Shown piece by piece: positions 3,785 to 62,445 of a DNA stretch of 64,000 nt. Below the pieces are notes generated by a model that made no database searches, was not told the DNA's origin, and saw only the letters and a program-made list of their open reading frames with translations. Source of the stretch: Oscillospiraceae bacterium (GTDB taxonomy: Bacteria > Bacillota > Clostridia > Oscillospirales > Oscillospiraceae); the NCBI GenBank assembly GCA_022801715.1, contig JAAWSV010000006.1:1-64000 (forward strand), in the 5' to 3' direction. The translations under genes and the position numbers were made by a program. The first letter of the stretch is position 1; each line of letters begins with the position of its first letter.

Positions 3785-4625
3785 CATCATCCGAACCGAA
3801 AACCTATCCTACGCCTATCCCCCCGACGAGGGGAAGGAGCCCATCCCCGCCCTCGCCGGCGTGGACCTGACCATTGAGCCGGGGAGCTTCGTGGTGGTCC
3901 TGGGGCACAACGGCTCCGGCAAGTCCACCCTGGCCAAGCACATGAACGCGGTACTCCTCCCCACGGGAGGCCGGGTCTTGGTGGACGGCATCGACACCGC
4001 CGAGGAGGAATCCCTCTTTGAGATCCGCCGCCGTGTGGGCATGGTGTTCCAGAACCCGGACAACCAGATTGTGGCCAACGTGGTGGAGGAGGACGTGGCC
4101 TTCGGCCCGGAGAACATCGGCGTCCCCACCGAGGAGATCCGCCGCCGTGTGGACGAGTCCCTGAAGGCGGTGGGGATGGAGGATTTTCTCCTCCACGCCC
4201 CCCACATGCTCTCCGGCGGCCAGAAGCAGCGCATCGCCATCGCCGGCGTCATCGCCATGGCCCCCCAGTGCATCGTCCTGGACGAGTCCACCGCCATGCT
4301 GGACCCCTCCGGCCGGCAGGAGGTGCTGCGCACCGTCAGCTGGCTGAACCGGGAGCGGGGCATCACCATTGTCCTGATCACCCACCACATGAACGAGGCG
4401 GCCTACGCCAACCGGGTCATCGTCATGGACCACGGCCGCGTGGCCATGGACGGCCCCCCCAGGGAGGTCCTCACCCGCTCGGAGGACCTGCGCCGCCTGG
4501 GCCTGACCCCCCCGCCCACGGTGGAGCTCCTGGACGCCCTCCGGGAGGCGGGCTGGGATGTGCCCTTGGACGCCATTGAGCCGGAGGAGTGCGCCGCCGC
4601 TATCAGCCAGTACCTCGGCGCGTGA
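3777..4625 (+). CDS. ecfA1: energy-coupling factor transporter ATPase EcfA1
   Basis: ATP-binding subunit of an energy-coupling factor (ECF) vitamin or metal transporter, working as a heterodimer with EcfA2 on the membrane subunit EcfT. Visible motifs are Walker A GHNGSGKST (43-51), Q-loop FQNPDNQ (91-97), signature LSGGQ (145-149), Walker B CIVLDE (165-170) and switch His in ITHHMNEA. The Walker B region reads DESTAMLD rather than DEPTAGLD, a known EcfA1 feature. It overlaps the VanZ-like gene. No substrate-binding S subunit is visible nearby, so this is probably a group II ECF module shared by several S subunits. Confidence 0.95.
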   Translation: MTDIIRTENLSYAYPPDEGKEPIPALAGVDLTIEPGSFVVVLGHNGSGKSTLAKHMNAVLLPTGGRVLVDGIDTAEEESLFEIRRRVGMVFQNPDNQIVANVVEEDVAFGPENIGVPTEEIRRRVDESLKAVGMEDFLLHAPHMLSGGQKQRIAIAGVIAMAPQCIVLDESTAMLDPSGRQEVLRTVSWLNRERGITIVLITHHMNEAAYANRVIVMDHGRVAMDGPPREVLTRSEDLRRLGLTPPPTVELLDALREAGWDVPLDAIEPEECAAAISQYLGA

Positions 4626-4676
4626 CCTTAACGGAAAACACACCTTACAGGCCTCTGCGGCCCGGACCTTTCTCCC

Positions 4677-4702
4677 TCAAAAAAGTGCCTGCGCTTTTTT
4701 GA
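4677..4702 (+). terminator. A/T-armed hairpin between ecfA1 and ecfA2
   Basis: TCAAAAAAG (4677-4685) pairs with CTTTTTTGA (4694-4702), extended by a G-U and a G-C pair around a CCTG loop. It has the form of an intrinsic terminator working in both directions, but it lies inside the ecf operon, about 25 bases before the ecfA2 start. It may act as a partial terminator that lowers ecfA2-ecfT expression. Confidence 0.45.
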
Positions 4703-4726
4703 AATATAAACTTAGAGGGTAAGCAT

Positions 4727-5593
4727 TTGGAACCGATCATTCAAGTAGAAAACCTGACACACACCTACGGCGCGGGAACCCCCTTCCAGCGTTCCGCCAT
4801 CGACGGCGTCAGCTTCCAGCTCCAACAGGGGGAGTTCTTGGGCGTCATCGGCCACACCGGCTCCGGAAAGTCCACCCTGATCCAGCACCTGAACGGTCTT
4901 TTGAAGCCCACCGCCGGCCGGGTCCTCTTCCACGGCCGGGACATCTGGGCCGACCCCAAGAAGATCCGGGAGGTCCGCTTCCGGGTGGGTCTGGTATTCC
5001 AGTACCCGGAGTACCAGCTCTTTGAGGAGACCGCCGCCAGGGATATTGCCTTCGGCCCTAAGAACATGGGCCTTGACGACGCGGAGATCCAGAGGCGCGT
5101 GGAGGAGGCGGCGGCCTTCGCCGGCCTCTCCCCCGACCTCTTGGACAAGTCCCCCTTCGACCTCTCCGGCGGCCAGAAGCGCCGGGTGGCCATCGCCGGC
5201 GTCATCGCCATGCGCCCGGAGGTGCTGATCCTGGACGAGCCCTCCGCCGGCCTGGACCCGGCGGGCCGCAGCGAGCTGCTGCAAAACATCCGGGACTACC
5301 ACGCCCGCACCGGCGGCACCGTGGTCCTGGTGAGCCACAGCATGGACGAGATCGCGGAGAACGTCCAGCGCATCCTGGTCCTCTCCCGCTCCGGCGTGGT
5401 GATGTCCGGGACGCCCCACGAGGTGTTCAGCCGCGCCGAGGAGCTAAAGGCCGTGGGCCTCGACCTGCCCCAGATCACCAAGGTGGCCATGGAGCTCCGC
5501 CGCCGCGGCGTGGAGATCGACCCAGCGGTGTACACCGTGGAGGACCTCCGCCGCTCCCTGCTGCTTCTGAGAGGAGGTGGCACGGGTGCTTAA
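4727..5593 (+). CDS. ecfA2: energy-coupling factor transporter ATPase EcfA2
   Basis: Second ATPase of the ECF module, 288 residues. Walker A GHTGSGKST is at 42-50, signature LSGGQ at 146-150 and Walker B VLILDEPSAGLD at about 166-177. The start is a TTG (4727) preceded by AGAGGG; the conserved opening IIQVENLTHTYG begins right after it, so no later start is possible. About 100 bases with a hairpin separate it from ecfA1. It overlaps the start of ecfT, which suggests tight stoichiometric coupling of EcfA2 and EcfT. Confidence 0.95.
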   Translation: MEPIIQVENLTHTYGAGTPFQRSAIDGVSFQLQQGEFLGVIGHTGSGKSTLIQHLNGLLKPTAGRVLFHGRDIWADPKKIREVRFRVGLVFQYPEYQLFEETAARDIAFGPKNMGLDDAEIQRRVEEAAAFAGLSPDLLDKSPFDLSGGQKRRVAIAGVIAMRPEVLILDEPSAGLDPAGRSELLQNIRDYHARTGGTVVLVSHSMDEIAENVQRILVLSRSGVVMSGTPHEVFSRAEELKAVGLDLPQITKVAMELRRRGVEIDPAVYTVEDLRRSLLLLRGGGTGA

Positions 5594-6389
5594 AGACATC
5601 ACCCTGGGCCAGTACTTCCCCGGCACCACCGTGGCCCACCGCTTGGACCCCCGTACCAAGCTCATCTTGGTGGTCCTCTATATCATCGCCCTCTTCGCCG
5701 CCGAGTCCTTCCTGTCCTACGGTCTGATGGCCCTGACCCTCTGCCTCTGCGTAGCGGTGTCCAGGGTCCCCCCCAAGTCCCTGATAAAGGGCCTGAAGCC
5801 GGTGCTCTTCATCCTGATCTTCACCGCCCTTTTGAACGTGTTCTACACCCCCGGCCGCATCCTCTGGCAGTGGTGGATCTTCCGCGTTACCATAGAGGGC
5901 ATTTTCACCGCCTTCTTCATGGCCCTGCGGATCTCCCTTCTGATCATGGGCACCTTCCTGATGACCTACACCACCAGCCCCATCATGCTCACCGACGGCA
6001 TGGAGAGCCTGATGAACCCCCTGAAAAAGCTCCATGTCCCAGTCCACGAGCTGGCCATGATGATGTCCATCGCCCTGCGCTTCATCCCCACCCTGATTGA
6101 GGAGACGGACAAGATCATGTCCGCCCAGAAGGCCCGGGGCGCGGACTTCGAGACCGGCAGCCTCTTTCAGCGGGCCAGGGCCATGGTGCCGCTGCTGGTG
6201 CCCCTGTTCATCTCCGCCTTCCGCCGGGCCGACGAGCTGGCGGTGGCCATGGAGTGCCGTTGCTACCACGGCGGCGAGGGCCGGACCAAGCTGAAGGTCC
6301 TGCGCTACCGCGGCATCGACTACGCGGCCTTTTTCCTGGGTGCGCTGATCCTCGCGGGCGTAATCGTACTGGCGCGGTTCGGACTTTAG
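5586..6389 (+). CDS. ecfT: energy-coupling factor transporter transmembrane protein EcfT
   Basis: Membrane scaffold of the ECF transporter. It has several hydrophobic helices, the family opening LDPRTKLI, and two coupling-helix segments: AQKARGADF (the Ala-Arg-Gly motif) and ECRCYHGG, where the second Ala-Arg-Gly is replaced by Cys-Arg-Cys. An upstream GTG at 5577 is also possible, but AGGAGG (5572-5577) sits at ideal distance from the GTG at 5586, so I chose the latter (267 residues). Its coding region overlaps ecfA2 by 8 bases. Confidence 0.93.
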   Translation: MLKDITLGQYFPGTTVAHRLDPRTKLILVVLYIIALFAAESFLSYGLMALTLCLCVAVSRVPPKSLIKGLKPVLFILIFTALLNVFYTPGRILWQWWIFRVTIEGIFTAFFMALRISLLIMGTFLMTYTTSPIMLTDGMESLMNPLKKLHVPVHELAMMMSIALRFIPTLIEETDKIMSAQKARGADFETGSLFQRARAMVPLLVPLFISAFRRADELAVAMECRCYHGGEGRTKLKVLRYRGIDYAAFFLGALILAGVIVLARFGL

Positions 6390-12771: not shown

Positions 12772-12800
12772 AACGGGAGATGAAGAATTCATCTCCCGTT
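12772..12800 (+). terminator. terminator of the clpE unit
   Basis: AACGGGAGATGAA (12772-12784) and TTCATCTCCCGTT (12788-12800) form a perfect 13-bp stem with a 3-base loop. The T-run is short (CGTTTCC). Confidence 0.65.
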
Positions 12801-12860: not shown

Positions 12861-13385
12861 CTATTTTTTACTTTTTTCCATCTGCTCCTTAAAGGATTTC
12901 TTGAGCATATCCAGCCCCGCCTTCTTCGTCAAATCGTTCTGATCCAGTTTCCCCATTTTAACTGCTTTGCAGACCTCAATATAGGCTTTACCTAAGGCCA
13001 GTGTGATCACTCCCGCCGTGCCGGCAGAAATGACACAGCCAGCTCCTGTGCCAACTCCCGGAATTAGCTTTAAGAGATTGGACACAACTGTTTTTCCGAT
13101 CACAGTTGCACCGCCAACACCGATTACAGCTGTAACCAAGGAGGCAAGCGCGTCGCGCTCAATGTTAAACGTAAAAACGTTATTGATCGCGACCATCATC
13201 GCTACCTGCTGTCCAACCAGCAATGGCGCATCAGCAAATGGAATGGGAACCGCACCAGTTGCAGCCGTACTCGCCACAAAACCCAGTACAATGTTGTTGG
13301 CCTTTTCAAACATTTCTTGGTACTCATACTCTTGGATGTCCTCTAAGAGATCGTCTTCATAGTTTGGCTTATCTGTAGCTGTCAT
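12861..13385 (-). CDS. DUF697-like hydrophobic protein (third gene of cassette)
   Basis: 174 residues. The N-terminus is acidic (NYEDDLLEDIQEYEYQEM). The core, GAVPIPFADAPLLVGQQVAM followed by LIPGVGTGAGCVISAGTAGV, resembles the DUF697 domain that is often fused to small GTPases of the YcjX/YcjF kind. Here it stands alone without a GTPase. Two or three glycine-rich hydrophobic helices suggest membrane insertion. The start ATG at 13385 has a GGGGGAAGAG site and lies 12 bases after the stop of the preceding gene. Codon use is clearly more AT-rich than in neighbours such as clpE. The assignment is by pattern and needs a profile search. Confidence 0.72.
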   Translation of the reverse strand: MTATDKPNYEDDLLEDIQEYEYQEMFEKANNIVLGFVASTAATGAVPIPFADAPLLVGQQVAMMVAINNVFTFNIERDALASLVTAVIGVGGATVIGKTVVSNLLKLIPGVGTGAGCVISAGTAGVITLALGKAYIEVCKAVKMGKLDQNDLTKKAGLDMLKKSFKEQMEKSKK

Positions 13386-13397
13386 TTTCTCTTCCCC

Positions 13398-14837
13398 CTA
13401 ATTCAAAAAGTAATTGTCGATATCCGATTTGCCGCGCAACACCCTGCCGCGGGCAACTCCGATATCGTCAGCCAACGCGATGGAACCATCAAAAGCGATG
13501 TTCACATCTCGGTCAAAAGCAAGTTCCAACATGGATGTATGCTTCGCAATTTCTTTCTTGAGTTGGGCTATTAGCTGCTGGTATCGCTCCTCCAACACTT
13601 CGTTTAGGGCAGCAAAGCTCTCACAGTAATTGGCAATCAGTGCTCGCTCCTTCGCAGAAAGATAGTCCTTTGCAATCTGATACATGAACATACCCGCCAT
13701 GTTGCCAATAACCGCGCCAAGAACAGGAACCGGAATCAGCGTCTGACCAAGCAGAGAAGCAACTGCGCCTACAGAAACATCAAGACAAAGAACCTCTGCG
13801 TTAACAATGAAATCTTCCTGCGTGATATTTCCCTGCTGAAGCTGATAAGCCTGTGCCGCTACGCCGAAGGACGCTGTTACCAGAGCGTTTGCGACTGCGG
13901 CAGGCGTTGCAGTGAAATTCGTCATTGCATAAATCGCCGTACCCCTGATGCCGCCTTGGACTGTTCCCTTTGCGGTGTCGATACCGACTTCCTGCCAATC
14001 CTCTTGGGAAAATTCCGCCAGATGTTTTCCCTGTTTTCGCTTTTTCAAGATGCCCAAGCAGAAGGCCATGCCGCCCTCCGCTGCCGCACCAACCGCCGCC
14101 GCTCGCGCCCCCTGTTTCAGTGTAGGCTTGCTGGCCTCATAGGCTGTGTCCCGGCGGCGCTGGTCCTCATCATGGATGTTTTGCTCCTCGCTTTTAACGG
14201 TCTCTTCAATTTTCCCCTTTTGGGCCGCCGAGTAGTCTATCACTGCCGGTTCCAAATCATCCGGTGTAATTCCGCTTTCGGCGAAAAACTCCTGCACCCA
14301 CTTCCAAAGCCGGTAAGTACTGGCAGATTCTTTTGCCGCCTCCTCTTGGGACATTGCCAGCAATCGCTTGAGTTCCTGATAGAAATCTTTCGGGAGTTGA
14401 TACTTTCCGCCCTTCTTGATAAAGTCTGGGTATTTTTCCAAGTGTTCTTTGACGGCCTCAAGGCCGAAGTGACCCCCTGCCCGCACGAATTTCTGCTGAA
14501 TTGCCATACCATCGCGGAGAAGATCTGCAGGACCATTGTCATTAATCCATTGACAGGCCGGCTCCAGCCCCTTAACGATATTCCTCGCATTTTCAATTCC
14601 GGTCTCGGCTGCTTCTGCGAGAAAACCATGTATTCCCTTTTCGCCGCCCCGATTGCTGGCAATTAAGGCGGCAATGTCCATCTTCATTTTCTGAAGCTCT
14701 GCCAGTGCCTGCTCCAAATTGATATCCTGTGCGGCCAGTTTTGCCAATAATTCATTCAACCGCAGTTGATTCAGATAATCAACCCATGCGGCAAAGCCTT
14801 GCTCCTGTGTACTTTTTACGATTTGTGCAACATCCAC
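13398..14837 (-). CDS. large helical protein with glycine-zipper core (second gene of cassette)
   Basis: 479 residues, family not recognised. The N-terminal ~230 residues are charged and helical, with a leucine-rich start (LRLNELLAKLAAQDINLEQA). The middle (about 235-400) holds hydrophobic glycine-rich stretches such as ARAAAVGAAAEGGMAFCLGI and LIPVPVLGAVIGNMAGMFMY, with small-residue spacing typical of membrane-inserting glycine zippers. The C-terminal tail is polar (FDRDVNIAFDGSIALADDIG). The start is GTG 14837 with GGGAGG 7 bases upstream. This site lies at the stop of the upstream gene, so the two are translationally coupled. Confidence 0.75.
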   Translation of the reverse strand: MDVAQIVKSTQEQGFAAWVDYLNQLRLNELLAKLAAQDINLEQALAELQKMKMDIAALIASNRGGEKGIHGFLAEAAETGIENARNIVKGLEPACQWINDNGPADLLRDGMAIQQKFVRAGGHFGLEAVKEHLEKYPDFIKKGGKYQLPKDFYQELKRLLAMSQEEAAKESASTYRLWKWVQEFFAESGITPDDLEPAVIDYSAAQKGKIEETVKSEEQNIHDEDQRRRDTAYEASKPTLKQGARAAAVGAAAEGGMAFCLGILKKRKQGKHLAEFSQEDWQEVGIDTAKGTVQGGIRGTAIYAMTNFTATPAAVANALVTASFGVAAQAYQLQQGNITQEDFIVNAEVLCLDVSVGAVASLLGQTLIPVPVLGAVIGNMAGMFMYQIAKDYLSAKERALIANYCESFAALNEVLEERYQQLIAQLKKEIAKHTSMLELAFDRDVNIAFDGSIALADDIGVARGRVLRGKSDIDNYFLN

Positions 14838-14849
14838 AACGGATCCTCC

Positions 14850-15689
14850 CTAAATCGTTTTGTTCAGCAGCTCTGCCAGTGTCAAAGTATTGTTTACCAT
14901 CGTTCCAAGCCGGTACTGCTGATCCTCAGAAAGCTCCAAGTAGTTTGCTCCCTTTAGCACTCTATTGGCTTGAGCCATGTCCCGCAAAGCATCCATCAGC
15001 ATTACAGTTTCATCCATCAAATACTGAATTTTTGTGCTGGCTTCCTTCAGCGCCGCGCCTGCAATGGTAATCTTTTTGGCCTCAGCAATTGCCGCATCCG
15101 CAATCTGTTTATTTTTATGTCCAAGCATAGCTACAGAAGCCACAGTCGTTACCCCAGTAATTCCCCAGCCAATGGGGCCGGCTAAGGCAAGCAATGCCTT
15201 TCCGCCTGCAATTCCCAGACCGCCCTTCGCTATCGCTCCTCCGCCCAGCCAAGCCAAGGCCGCCTTTGTGGCTGCGGCTCCTGTTAGAGAAGATATTGCG
15301 GTTCCGGTGGAGGCCGTTCCAAAGGTTGTCGCAACCCACATGGCCGCCGTTGGTGCCATGCTGGCCACCGCAGCCCCTCCGGCAACTCCGGCTGCAACAG
15401 CAGCTCCGGACTTGACGGCGGCCTCCATCGCCTCTGCGGCATAGGCCTCAGTCCCCCGGAATTTCTCCCGTGCCGTCTGAATATCCGAAATCTTTTTCTC
15501 AAATTCTTTAGGCCGGTTGGCAATACTGTTCACTAAGAGCTCGATTTCGTGGATCAAAGTAATGCTGTCTTGCCGCCGTTCATAGAGCTGACTACCCAGC
15601 TTTTCCATCTCTTGATATTGAACATTGTACTTGCTTACCGCCCGCTCATGAATGGCAAGTGCTTCCTTTTTGGGTTTTGCATAGAGCAT
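14850..15689 (-). CDS. coiled-coil / glycine-zipper protein (first gene of cassette)
   Basis: 279 residues, family not recognised. There is a charged coiled-coil-like N-terminus (about 5-90), then long Ala/Gly-rich hydrophobic segments (AAVAAGVAGGAAVASMAPTA and GGGAIAKGGLGIAGGKALLA), then a helical tail. The pattern is like pore-forming or membrane-remodelling proteins, but that is inference. I use the ATG at 15689 because GGAGG lies 7 bases before it; a longer TTG start would include the ribosome binding site itself. The stop at 14850 leaves 12 bases before the next gene. Codon use is AT-richer than in the flanks. Confidence 0.74.
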   Translation of the reverse strand: MLYAKPKKEALAIHERAVSKYNVQYQEMEKLGSQLYERRQDSITLIHEIELLVNSIANRPKEFEKKISDIQTAREKFRGTEAYAAEAMEAAVKSGAAVAAGVAGGAAVASMAPTAAMWVATTFGTASTGTAISSLTGAAATKAALAWLGGGAIAKGGLGIAGGKALLALAGPIGWGITGVTTVASVAMLGHKNKQIADAAIAEAKKITIAGAALKEASTKIQYLMDETVMLMDALRDMAQANRVLKGANYLELSEDQQYRLGTMVNNTLTLAELLNKTI

Positions 15690-15738
15690 AAAACAATCCT
15701 CCAAATCTATTTTACTCTATAATCTCCTTGGCTTCTCA

Positions 15739-15777
15739 GCCACATTTTATATAGGACCTTAAAAGAACAAATGTGGC
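15739..15777 (-). promoter_or_regulatory. inverted repeat upstream of the three-gene cassette
   Basis: GCCACATTT (15739-15747) and AAATGTGGC (15769-15777) are perfect arms separated by 21 bases, about 50 bases before the first cassette gene. The AT-rich centre (TATATAGG) could hold a promoter. It looks like an operator. A related TGTGCCACA lies near 15821. Confidence 0.45.
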
Positions 15778-16720
15778 AGATTGAATAAGAGCGTAGTTTA
15801 AGCGAGCTTTTTAAAGGTCATGTGCCACACCAAAAGGGACGCTGCGGCTTTTGCTTCATTCCTCCTACCCCAAGATGGTTTGTAACAGTCTGCAACCACA
15901 TCCCCTTGCAGTTTTGTTGATTCGATAGATACCGCCAGACGGTTGATATAGAACAAGATTAAACTCAGGCCCTACACAAATACAGCATACCACAATGAGG
16001 AGCCAAAGTCACCCACAAGATAGAGATTTGACGCGCTACTCGCCTCATCTGGGTGCTGGACATCGAGATAACTAACACGGAAGCTCTATCCAGTCTATTA
16101 TGAAAAAGCCGCCCTCTATCCAATCTCTAAAGCAGGAGCGTGCCGCGTTGCAGGCAGAGAGCAAAAACGGTACCCCAAATACAAACAATGCGCCGGTATA
16201 TATCGGCGCATTGTTTGTCGCTGCCCGTCATCGGTACGGCAGAGTCCCATAACAGCACAACCAATTCTTCGTCTTTGTATCACCCAAAAGCTCCTCCAGT
16301 GTACGGGGGCGGAAGCTTGGAGCACCGTTCGAGAGAGGCCCACAGAACGCCAAACTGCCTCGCAAAACAGCTCTTCAATAACTGCGGTATCGTTCTCATC
16401 TATCTTGTGCAACACTTCACTCAGTTTCACCACATAAGTGTCAAAATTACAACAATCCTTGCAAAAATCCGGATGGTATGATAGACTACTATATCATCCC
16501 AGCAAGGAGGCGGGGCCCGTGGGCTATCCAGCTGGTTGTGGGTGTTTTTCTTAGAGACACCCTTGCTGGCACATGGCGTCCTCCGACTGCTGGCTGCACG
16601 GGAACCGCACGGACAGATCAGCCCACAACTGCATCCGGTACTTGGGCCTACTTTTACGCAGAAGGGAGGCAGCGGGGATTCCTCCCCTGCCTATAGAGCT
16701 GGGAGAGGAATTTTCCAGAT
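15778..16720. other. gene-poor, decayed stretch
   Basis: No convincing intact gene. On the minus strand, fragments around 16230-16430 (KLSEVLHKIDENDTAVIEEL in one frame, LEELLGDTKTKNWLCCYG in another) read like one short protein broken by a frame change. Around 16500-16700 a GC-rich patch with no clean frame follows. A strong hairpin at 16182-16217 is listed separately. Confidence 0.4.
16182..16217. terminator. 14-bp perfect hairpin
   Basis: CAAACAATGCGCCG (16182-16195) pairs fully with CGGCGCATTGTTTG (16204-16217) over an 8-base loop. No intact gene ends here, so it may be the leftover terminator of the decayed frame on the minus strand. Confidence 0.45.
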
Positions 16721-17114: not shown

Positions 17115-18402
17115 CTAATCGAGCGCCTCCCAGCATCGGTTCTGCGTGAACGCCTGTACCAGTCCAGCGTCCAGCTTGCCCTCTTTCTCCGCCATATCTC
17201 TCAGGATTGCCAGCGCCCGCTCCATGGGCATTCCAGGCTTATAGGGCCTGTCGTCGGCGGTCAGCGGGTCAAAAATATCCAATATCGTCAAAATACGGGC
17301 CTCTATCGGGATATCTTCGCCAGAAAAGTGCTTCGGATAACCTGTGCCATTCAAAAACTCATGGTGGCTGGCCGCCCAATCCTATACATGGGACAGCTCC
17401 GGGGAGAACTGAATCTGCGCGAGCAGCCTATCCGTCATGACAACGTGAGACTGCATGGTATCCCGCTCCTCGTCAGACAGCGTCCCCCTGCGGATGGACA
17501 GCATGGCATACTCGCCCAGCGTCAGCCAGAGCTGTCTTTGCCCATTCCGATCAAGATACGTCTGTTTGGATAGGCGCTCCAGTGCTGTCAGCTTGTCATC
17601 CGGGATAAATCCGGCGGTATTCACTGCGTCCACCAGAGCCTCAGCCTCGCGGGTCTCCCGTATCAGCTCTTGAGCCGGAGCGGCTCCTGTAACGGTGTGG
17701 CCTTGATCCGCCCGTCCAGCGCGTCAGCCACGGCGCGGCAGGCCAGCAGGACATAGTTCTTCTGAGGCAGGGGGCATTCCAGAAGTCCATGGTGCAGTCC
17801 CCCACAAACTTATCCAATGTGCCGTGATCGTCCATGACACACCTTATGATCAATGTCAGGTACTGGCTCAAAATCTCCACTACCCGCTCCGGCTCCAAGC
17901 TCTCCGACATGGCGGTAATCCCCCGTATGTCCGCCAGCTGGGGAGCGGTCCCGATCTCCCGCTTATAGCTCCCCTCCAGCATAGCCTGTACCGCGTTGGC
18001 CTGATATTCCACGCCGTACATCTGCCGGGCATGGTCGATGGCCATAACATAGCTGTCCTGCAAGCCCGCCGCGCAGAGGCCGATGTGGACGATTTTCCCC
18101 GCGAAATACGCCGCCGGGTCCTCCCTCTCCAAGACATCGGTTATCGAGCGGGTCTCAAAGCCGCCCGGTGCTTTGTACCAGAAGCCCCGCGCGCTGACAG
18201 GCGGAAGCTCCAGACCATCCTGATACCGCTGGGCCAGTGCCATGGATGGGACACGCGTCCCGTTGGGCCGGTCAAAATACAGCAGATGATGCCGCAGAAT
18301 GCCGTCACTGTCCATCATAGCGTTGATGTGGCCTTGGGGGGATTTCCACACAGCTTGGCCATCCAAGCCGCGCCCTCTATAGCAAAAGCAACACGGCCCC
18401 AT
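17115..18402 (-). pseudogene. broken CHASE2 - cyclase - HD-GYP signalling gene
   Basis: Remains of a membrane signalling protein. The first part (from about 18370 down) matches a CHASE2 sensor end: GHINAMMDSDGILRHHLLYF and AAYFAGKIVHIGLCAAGLQD. It then jumps at QLADIRGITAMSESLEPERV into a class III nucleotide-cyclase start, without the transmembrane segments that should lie between, which points to a deletion. After TLDKFVGDCTMDFWNAP the frame shifts near 17770. The next frame holds an HD-GYP domain with SHHEFLNGTGYP, interrupted by an in-frame TAG at 17382-17384. The N-terminus and most of the cyclase are missing. A functional product is unlikely. Confidence 0.75.
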
Positions 18403-21099: not shown

Positions 21100-21179
21100 T
21101 GGAAAAAAGTGCAGATTAGGCGGCACGGGGGATGTTTTGTAACAAAGAACTCTGTAATATACATATGGAGGAATCACCT

Positions 21180-22367
21180 ATGGAAAACTATCAATTCAGC
21201 ATTGGCGAAACTATGCAATATACTCTTTCTGCTGTTGAAATGTTGAGAATATTGGGCTATACCCAACCTTTAAACGGGGAATGGCTTGAAAAATTAAAGC
21301 AGGATCATCCCATAAACCTACCCAAAACCTACACGGAATTTATGGAACTGATGGCGGACTGTCCCCTTTTGGCAACCTCCAACCTCTGGGTGGGGAAGAT
21401 GGAACGCAGGGCTGCTCCACGTATCCCTCATACGTATTATGACGAACTCTTAGAAATGATCAACGACCGCAAGGACCGCTGGTCAAAGCGCCCCGGTAGA
21501 TATGAACGGGCCTTGTATGAGTTGTCCCAACTCCCAGCAGAGCAATGGCAAGAAAAGGTCAGCAACTACTTTTTGATCGGCAGCGATTATGCAAATGGAA
21601 TGGGTGAGTTTGGCATTCGTATAGAGGATACGGAAAAGGACGACCCACCAGTATATTGGCACAAGGATGGGGACGATTTTTCCACATGGAAATTGGAAAG
21701 TGAAACGCTATCTGACTTTTTGCTCAACGTTTTAATTGAGGCACTTGCTTGTATTGACTACCAAACCGCGGAATACGAATTGGAAACAAAGGGCTGGCGA
21801 TGCCAAGAATACTACAACCTAAAAAAAGATGACTGGGTTGCAAGCAAATCCGTTTTGAAACGGTACGGGATCGACTATTCCGCTGTCAAAAAATACAAAG
21901 CCAACAGCGGGAAAGTTTTTTGCTGCTATAATTGTGAAAAAAACACTTTTTTTGTTGGTGCTACCGCGGAGGGGGATCTATCCCTTACCGCCATCAACCG
22001 TAGCGAGGCGGAACCTATCTTCTTGGACACAGACAGTCTGGAATTTTTGATAGAGGAAGCCAAACTATTTATCAAGACCAAAGACAAAAGCGAACGGGAT
22101 GACCTGACACAGTACATGCTCTACACCAAAGAACCCAAAACAGAGATACACCTGTCTGATCACTGCTTCATGTACACGCCCCTGCAACCTGAAGGAGATG
22201 AAAACTTACTTTTCCTGCCTTTTGGGGAGAAAAAACCGGTCTTTGTCCTATGCAGCGGCGCCACCTTCGTTGAAGTGCTGAGCAAGGCATTAAAGGAAAA
22301 GCCCAAGTCCACAAATGAGGAATTAGCGGCAGCTTTGAACCTTTATTTACAGACTGAAAATCACTGA
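21180..22367 (+). CDS. SMI1/KNR4 (SUKH)-like protein, 395 aa
   Basis: The N-terminal half resembles the SUKH fold (SMI1/KNR4), which includes many immunity proteins of polymorphic toxins: HPINLPKTYTEFMELMADCP (about 40-60), YFLIGSDYANGMGEFGIRIE and the PPVYWHKDGDDFSTWKLESE strand pair. The C-terminal half is of unknown kind and may be a second related domain (KVFCCYNCEKNTFFVGATAE). ATG 21180 has TGGAGGA upstream; the longer frame begins before this site. Codon use is AT-richer than in the ribosomal genes around it. The gene stands alone on the plus strand, with no toxin beside it. Confidence 0.7.
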   Translation: MENYQFSIGETMQYTLSAVEMLRILGYTQPLNGEWLEKLKQDHPINLPKTYTEFMELMADCPLLATSNLWVGKMERRAAPRIPHTYYDELLEMINDRKDRWSKRPGRYERALYELSQLPAEQWQEKVSNYFLIGSDYANGMGEFGIRIEDTEKDDPPVYWHKDGDDFSTWKLESETLSDFLLNVLIEALACIDYQTAEYELETKGWRCQEYYNLKKDDWVASKSVLKRYGIDYSAVKKYKANSGKVFCCYNCEKNTFFVGATAEGDLSLTAINRSEAEPIFLDTDSLEFLIEEAKLFIKTKDKSERDDLTQYMLYTKEPKTEIHLSDHCFMYTPLQPEGDENLLFLPFGEKKPVFVLCSGATFVEVLSKALKEKPKSTNEELAAALNLYLQTENH

Positions 22368-61448: not shown

Positions 61449-62445
61449 ATGGACAAAAAGAAGACTCGGCACCACTATGTCTATCAGCGGTATCTCTCCG
61501 CTTGGACTGTAAATGACCAGTTGTGGTGCAGACGGAAGGGAACGCTCTTCCCCTCCGCCACCATAAATGTCGCACAAATGCGGAATTTCTACCAGCTCCG
61601 TCCAGTAAACCGAGATGAGATCATCCTCACCCTGAAGTTGTTTGCCAAGGACTCCCCCTCCCTTCAACAGGCCATTCTAAGACACATGATCGCCTACCTT
61701 GAACCACTCAAGTGGCAAAAGACCATCCACTCGCCGAAAGAGATCCTCGAAGCAGAGTATGGCACCAATATCCCGCGCTCAATAAGTGAACAGCTTCAAA
61801 AACTAAAGGACACGGCCGATATTGCGGTAAATAACACAGAGGAGGAGCACTACTCGGATATCGAAGGAGAAAGTGTGAAATGGCTTGAGGCATTGAAAGC
61901 CGGCAGCACCAGCTTCTACTAACGCAACAGAGAGAATACTGAACGTGCGGCGTATCTCAACGACGAAGCCTATCATTTTCTCTACTTTGCCGATGAGACA
62001 TCCCGGCTGGGAACAACTGGGGCTCTCGTCGGATAATATTGACCCAGAAAATCTCACATTCCACGTGTTTTGGGTTTTCCAGAGCTTAATGGCATTCAAC
62101 CTCAAGAAACGGGATGTGCTACTGTCTCTGCTATTCAACAAAACCGACCTGCCCTTTGTTACATCGAATCAGCCAATTATCAATCTGAACGCGGACTACC
62201 AAAAGCTGGAGGCGATGGCAGAGGATCTGCTGTTCTACTATCCCATCTCTCCCCATACCGCGATCCTGCTGAACGACTACACACTGCCCCAAAAGGTACG
62301 CCTCACAGAAAACCAAGTCGAGATCTGCAACAGAGCCATCATCCGGGCCTCCCATGAATTTGTTTTCGCCAACAGCAAACCCTTCCTGACCTATTATCAG
62401 GATATCTTTCCAGACACAGCCCCAAAACATCCTGCAACAAAGTAA
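61449..62445 (+). pseudogene. DUF4238-like gene, broken by a stop and a frameshift
   Basis: The first part opens MDKKKTRHHYVYQRYLSAW, the typical DUF4238 start. It meets a TAA at 61920-61922 and reads on in the same frame (RNRENTERAAYLNDEAYHFL) to about 61995. The match then continues in another frame with WEQLGLSSDNIDPENL and DLPFVTSNQPIINL, the family's second conserved part, up to 62445. DUF4238 proteins are accessory genes of unknown role, sometimes found near defence islands. Confidence 0.75.

Follow-up and report, generated by a model that had tools for sequence, protein, structure and literature searches.

A three-gene cassette of the PDC-M09 phage-defence candidate type with a stand-alone DUF697 gene in an Oscillospiraceae genome

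In a 64,000-nucleotide stretch from an Oscillospiraceae bacterium (contig JAAWSV010000006.1, positions 1 to 64,000; the window), three intact minus-strand open reading frames (ORFs) in the order A-B-C form a cassette whose first two genes are the phage-defence candidate PDC-M09, already catalogued in the PADLOC database (PADLOC-DB 2.0.0). A role of the cassette in defence is likely, and our best explanation, which we hold tentatively, is that it is a WYL-controlled, membrane-held, nuclease-type anti-phage system of the PDC-M09 type with a DUF697 protein as an addition. Beyond the PDC-M09 entry, the analysis adds a third membrane gene that is conserved, a nuclease domain predicted in B and the loss of an upstream WYL regulator, a type that often accompanies phage-defence genes. 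An earlier note on this DNA, made from the sequence alone, contained neither the nuclease-like domain of B, nor C as a lineage-specific addition to an A-B core, nor the lost regulator. It had described three tightly spaced minus-strand genes with 12-base gaps, and the ORF coordinates agree:

14850 to 15689, minus strand: gene A, 279 residues, ATG start behind GGAGG; PDC-M09A
13398 to 14837, minus strand: gene B, 479 residues, GTG start; PDC-M09B
12861 to 13385, minus strand: gene C, 174 residues; stand-alone DUF697 protein, third in the cassette

Gene A matches the PADLOC model PDC-M09A (E 1.2e-98; residues 1-279 to model positions 1-280 of 282), and B, adjoining A across one of the two 12-base gaps, matches PDC-M09B (E 6.4e-210; residues 2-479). 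Both are full-length matches, and the order, A then B, is that of PDC-M09. The catalogued system has two genes only, whereas here a DUF697 gene follows, a WYL gene once preceded and a nuclease-like domain is proposed in B. No PADLOC model significantly matches C, and the DUF697 gene lies outside the PDC-M09 definition. All three genes are full length, each with a ribosome-binding site. Compared with the loci L002 and L006 (our locus numbers), identity in all three genes is 75-91% at the first two codon positions and 37-52% at the third (for C against L002, 0.83, 0.90 and 0.48 by codon position). This much stronger conservation of positions 1 and 2 shows that A, B and C are under purifying selection.

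Distribution of the pair and its neighbours

A scan of bacterial genomes with C yielded ten loci, nearly all in Bacillota. In eight of the ten, which belong to clostridial-type relatives and are all the intact ones found, the genes stand in the identical A-B-C order; the other two are a contig that starts inside C (L007) and a locus with a shortened B and without A (L011). Two of these loci, L005 and L006, differ very little from each other. Among 60 relatives, ten of them of the same genus, the only match outside the own genome was a weak one to B, and among 398 genomes of the phylum a strong match was obtained in only two others (L024, L025), which carry A-B without C.

The pair without C was found on 61 plasmid records, 46 of them from Klebsiella; plasmids with the A-B order come from Klebsiella, Lactococcus, Rhodococcus, Curtobacterium, Leptolyngbya and Niallia. 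It is also present without C in five phage contigs (L060, L061, L063, L064, L066), and on chromosomes or islands of Escherichia coli in 5 of 5,426 genomes, with at least 80% of the query covered. The phyla with A-B number at least four (Bacillota, Pseudomonadota, Actinomycetota and Cyanobacteriota). Because the pair occurs elsewhere without C, we take A-B to be the core, to which C was added in one lineage. The earlier note had named co-occurrence of the genes in other genomes as a check, and it is found for A-B-C in eight loci and widely for A-B. A gene of 840 codons (L149:11328-13850, L066:3471-5993) takes the third position in L066 and in E. coli PSJ-29 and Z226-5; its product has no Pfam match and is weakly similar to the hydrophobic part of B. 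As the A-B pair is spread over at least four phyla and also carried by conjugative Klebsiella plasmids, it may affect how susceptible bacteria of practical interest are to phages.

Genes beside A-B include restriction, abortive infection (Abi), SIR2, McrBC-like and dynamin genes. McrBC-like AAA and nuclease genes adjoin the pair in Klebsiella and Leptolyngbya, a SIR2 gene stands beside it in E. coli, and two dynamin-family genes flank it in Lactococcus L035; in L026 (5113-9718) a dynamin-family GTPase gene lies upstream of a divergent B-like gene. On the Klebsiella plasmids L032, L033 and L039 the pair adjoins a tellurium-resistance ter operon and a HAD hydrolase gene. The defence reading offered in the earlier note thus gains from PDC-M09A/B membership, mobility, defence-type neighbours, occurrence in phage contigs and linkage to WYL genes. 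A phage structural module was also considered and rejected: the match of A to PHROGs tape-measure proteins is weak (E 0.005), and the pair and the structural genes of phage contigs are encoded on opposite strands.

As a separate observation, a B-like gene precedes an A-like gene in the reversed order in L027, L028, L029, L090 and L091. TerB-like genes lie near these pairs (confirmed by Pfam as TerB in L029), as do WYL genes in some, and L027 weakly matches PDC-M40B.

Predicted domains and membrane segments

The B protein consists of an N-terminal nuclease-like domain followed by glycine-rich hydrophobic helices in its C-terminal part, between residues 240 and 392; its AlphaFold2 model has a predicted local distance difference test (pLDDT) score of 79.4. 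The domain is located as follows:

14343 to 14684, minus strand: predicted PD-QXK (Mrr-type) nuclease-like domain of B, residues 52-165, with the motif E75, D105, Q114-x-K116

Across 23 divergent B homologues, G71, E75, D105 and K116 in this domain are invariant and Q114 is at least 90% conserved. The PD-QXK group has been described, the QXK form being a Mrr-like active site (PMC11347163), and B shows the motif of that group, with the Glu on the first helix followed by the Asp and QxK. The elements modelled by AlphaFold2 (helix 65-88; strands 95-97, 106-108 and 111-115; helix 126-135; strand 145-148) follow the order helix-strand-strand-strand-helix-strand, which fits a PD-(D/E)XK core. Aligned with hhalign to a Mrr_cat profile that we built from domains out of 61 genomes, the B domain places E, D and QxK in register with a score of 18.0, while 100 column shuffles reach at most 13.5 and the reversed profile scores 8.9; the match is weak, with p values of 0.013 (local) and 0.0053 (global) and a probability of only 3%. 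On balance, residues 52-165 of B probably adopt a PD-QXK-like fold, and catalytic activity of the domain, as predicted from its motif, is less assured than the fold.

Compared with the Mrr/BisI-type PD-QXK endonucleases (PMC11347163), B is only weakly similar by profile, is fused to hydrophobic helices and carries no known DNA-recognition domain. Scans of Pfam, NCBIfam and PADLOC gave no match of B to a nuclease domain family of known defence systems, and a PDB sequence search with the N-terminal profile of B returned nothing usable. Foldseek of B against the PDB and viral libraries gave nothing significant. The top PDB entries are Tim17/22/23-like four-helix proteins (E 0.36 or worse), a weak resemblance only, to the hydrophobic part of the B model. 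B also weakly matches DUF3482 (0.018 in B itself, 3e-4 at best among homologues).

The A protein is modelled by AlphaFold2 as long helices (4-55, 61-98, 186-241 and 255-275) surrounding a Gly/Ala-rich hydrophobic core (94-187). Conservation in A is highest in this core, which is nearly invariant in 14 homologues; the pLDDT of A is 68.6, that of the core below 50. The nearest solved structures found by Foldseek are ClyA, SmhB, AhlB and bacterial dynamins, none of them significant; the best is ClyA at E 0.37, with the core of A modelled at low confidence, and the matches to BDLP and IniA are likewise not significant. Like the Leo dynamins and the ClyA-type alpha-pore-forming toxins, A is a predicted helical bundle with a glycine-rich hydrophobic part; in contrast to them, the cassette has no GTPase and the structural similarity of A is non-significant. 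Neither A, B nor C matches Dynamin_N in Pfam. A candidate second copy of A in the own genome (C113, 2.9e-16) was rejected as an apparent chance reading of a GC-rich ORF.

The C protein matches Pfam DUF697 (PF05128) at E 1.6e-9 over residues 11-154, with 38.1 bits against a cut-off of 27.7. Pfam and NCBIfam scans of A, B and C found no P-loop GTPase family, and the earlier description of C as a DUF697 protein standing without its GTPase thus holds. C shares the domain with the GTPase-DUF697 proteins (YcjX/YcjF-like) but differs from them in that no P-loop GTPase is present in C or in the cassette. The own genome has one copy of C, two scans of viral contigs found none, and a PDB sequence search with C gave nothing usable. 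Elsewhere in the order, DUF697 domains related to C are fused to a P-loop GTPase (L145-L147). Two other contexts make stand-alone DUF697 appear as a module of several cassettes: in L141 such a gene (5317-5859) adjoins a metallo-beta-lactamase/RMMBL gene (4140-5279), possibly a further cassette, and in L144 (5204-10225) a WYL regulator is followed by a protein of 1349 residues, which carries DUF697 C-terminally and has no further Pfam match.

A, B and C all contain hydrophobic stretches and glycine-zipper patterns; the earlier note had described a glycine-zipper core in B and judged all three able to enter membranes. With moderate hydropathy peaks, membrane attachment of the cassette proteins is likely.

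The lost WYL regulator, the proposed mechanism and its rivals

Two features lie directly upstream of A:

15707 to 15748, minus strand: WYL regulator remnant, last 13 codons KMWLRSQGDYRVK plus stop
15739 to 15777, no strand: inverted repeat GCCACATTT/AAATGTGGC, with perfect 9-bp arms at 15739-15747 and 15769-15777

In both position and sequence, the remnant agrees with the 59-residue remnant in L002 and with the C-terminal tail encoded by the WYL genes that precede A in L004 and L005/L006. An intact helix-turn-helix (HTH)-WYL regulator stands directly upstream of A in L004, L006 and L140 (WYL by Pfam in L004 and L006), and L005 has the same gene as L006, cut by the contig end. Only the last 59 residues are left in L002, and in the window no intact WYL regulator was found upstream of A, only the 13 codons. 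In E. coli the gene upstream is annotated as a WYL protein (Z226-5) or a helix-turn-helix regulator (PSJ-29), and WYL genes also occur in L066 and the divergent L091, directly upstream of A or B, and nearby in the divergent L030. The WYL proteins BrxR and CapW repress defence operons (PMC9122601, PMC9122588). Several relatives of the cassette resemble those systems in having an HTH-WYL gene directly upstream, whereas in the own genome that gene is reduced to 13 codons, which suggests altered control or the onset of decay.

The earlier note had read the inverted repeat as the cassette's own operator. The perfect repeat exists, but the operator role is unsupported and was rejected, because the repeat is absent from all eight orthologous upstream regions (0/8) and its gene-proximal arm, GCCACATTT (15739-15747), lies inside the last 13 codons of the WYL remnant.

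We propose that A and B would form a complex on the inner face of the cell membrane, to which their glycine-rich hydrophobic helices would hold it, and that the PD-QXK nuclease-like domain of B would cut or disable phage DNA, most plausibly as this DNA enters through the membrane. C would be a lineage-specific DUF697 membrane accessory that may help in anchoring, assembly or the membrane response. In relatives, the upstream WYL regulator probably keeps the operon repressed until the cell is infected or under DNA stress; since only its last 13 codons remain in the own genome, control there is probably altered or constitutive. SNIPE is a membrane nuclease that cuts phage DNA during injection (PMC13190303). 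By analogy, the cassette would work alike, as a membrane-held nuclease against incoming phage DNA; it is unrelated to SNIPE by family search, has a PD-QXK-like domain instead of the SNIPE nuclease and comprises two or three proteins rather than one. With this proposal PDC-M09 gains a testable mechanism, together with candidate key residues (E75, D105, Q114 and K116), a likely regulator class and a third component. If the membrane-held nuclease is real, the cassette joins SNIPE in telling self from non-self by location and not by sequence, and DUF697, a domain of unknown function, obtains a possible role outside GTPases. A bolder and, in our estimate, unlikely extension is that PDC-M09 represents a new immunity class, in which a WYL-controlled, membrane-embedded Mrr-type nuclease and a glycine-zipper partner intercept phage DNA at the membrane, with interchangeable third genes (DUF697 in clostridia, the 840-residue protein in E. 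coli); stand-alone DUF697 would then have lost its GTPase and be a membrane module of immunity that can be reused.

Several points weigh against the proposed mechanism. Besides being weak, the Mrr comparison is partly circular, because Mrr was picked on account of the motif, and no nuclease emerged for B from Foldseek with the whole model, Pfam or the PDB sequence search. Membrane insertion is uncertain, since hydropathy peaks are moderate (at most 1.9), and the model of the core of A is of low confidence. The enrichment of defence families around the pair (110 PADLOC families matched at E 1e-10 by 136 flanking ORFs, against 19 by 104 control ORFs) is indicative only, because families and not ORFs were counted and the loci are non-random. 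The controls were taken by the identical ORF procedure from the window and the backbones of four same-genus genomes, and many of their 19 matches are explained by housekeeping genes. Our literature search found no experiment on PDC-M09 and no mention of it by name, and the PADLOC web-server paper gives no account of the PDC names.

The main rival, which we consider doubtful, is an abortive-infection membrane system in which A, B and C form a pore or leak on sensing phage, the N-terminal domain of B acts solely as a sensor or binds nucleic acid, and infection ends in death or growth arrest of the cell. The Gly/Ala-rich hydrophobic segments in all three proteins would suit it, as would the conservation of the core of A above the rest of that protein, the non-significant likeness of A to the ClyA, SmhB and AhlB pores and WYL control, which befits a toxic effector (PMC9122588). 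However, no Foldseek E-value is better than 0.37, the conserved motif of B has the look of a catalytic one, and most lineages, judged by gene content, have A-B without C.

An improbable alternative is that the genes are cargo serving a mobile element itself, in plasmid or prophage maintenance, superinfection exclusion or competition, and not in host defence. The pair does occur on plasmids and phage contigs, in four of the latter (L060, L061, L063, L064) on the strand opposite to neighbouring phage genes, but it is also chromosomal in many lineages, beside host defence genes, and shows no link with partition or conjugation genes across loci. Slightly less probable again is membrane remodelling by a system related to bacterial dynamins or to GTPase-DUF697 proteins, for which another gene would provide the GTPase. 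The fusions of DUF697 to P-loop GTPases in L145-L147, the dynamin genes flanking the pair in L035 and near the divergent B of L026, and the weak DUF3482 match of B point that way; against this, no GTPase is encoded in the cassette or in most A-B loci, C is conserved as a stand-alone protein beside A-B without one, and the BDLP and IniA matches of A are non-significant. Least probable is a non-functional leftover following regulator loss, for which the mere 13 regulator codons and broken ORFs nearby at 17.1-18.4 kb would speak, but not the three full-length ORFs with ribosome-binding sites or the far greater variation of codon position 3 than of positions 1 and 2 between lineages.

Composition and boundaries of the cassette

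The cassette was horizontally acquired. Its G+C content is 50.5%, compared with 62.8% for the adjoining left-hand block, and falls within the lowest 2.5% of same-size stretches across the window. The G+C content at third codon positions (GC3) of A, B and C is 0.50-0.54, against mostly 0.8-0.9 in neighbouring genes, and the earlier remark that the cassette is richer in A+T is thereby confirmed. Backbone synteny with same-genus genomes ends at about 12797, which places the start of the cassette at the end of the shared block, beside an inverted repeat:

12772 to 12800, no strand: 13-bp inverted repeat AACGGGAGATGAA/TTCATCTCCCGTT, a possible terminator at the end of the shared backbone

Outside the main collinear block, tblastx against the same-genus genomes was too noisy, and no boundary was located on the far side of the cassette.

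Four further features were observed in the window. Upstream of the cassette, a nearly perfect 19-bp palindrome without a spacer lies at 16181-16218. At 17115-18402 a CHASE2-domain ORF is followed by shorter fragments, apparently a broken sensor gene. The ORF at 21132-22367 has low GC3 and a SMI1/KNR4 (SUKH-1) domain and was possibly also acquired, and a low-GC3 DUF4238 gene at 61449-62445 is split over two ORFs.

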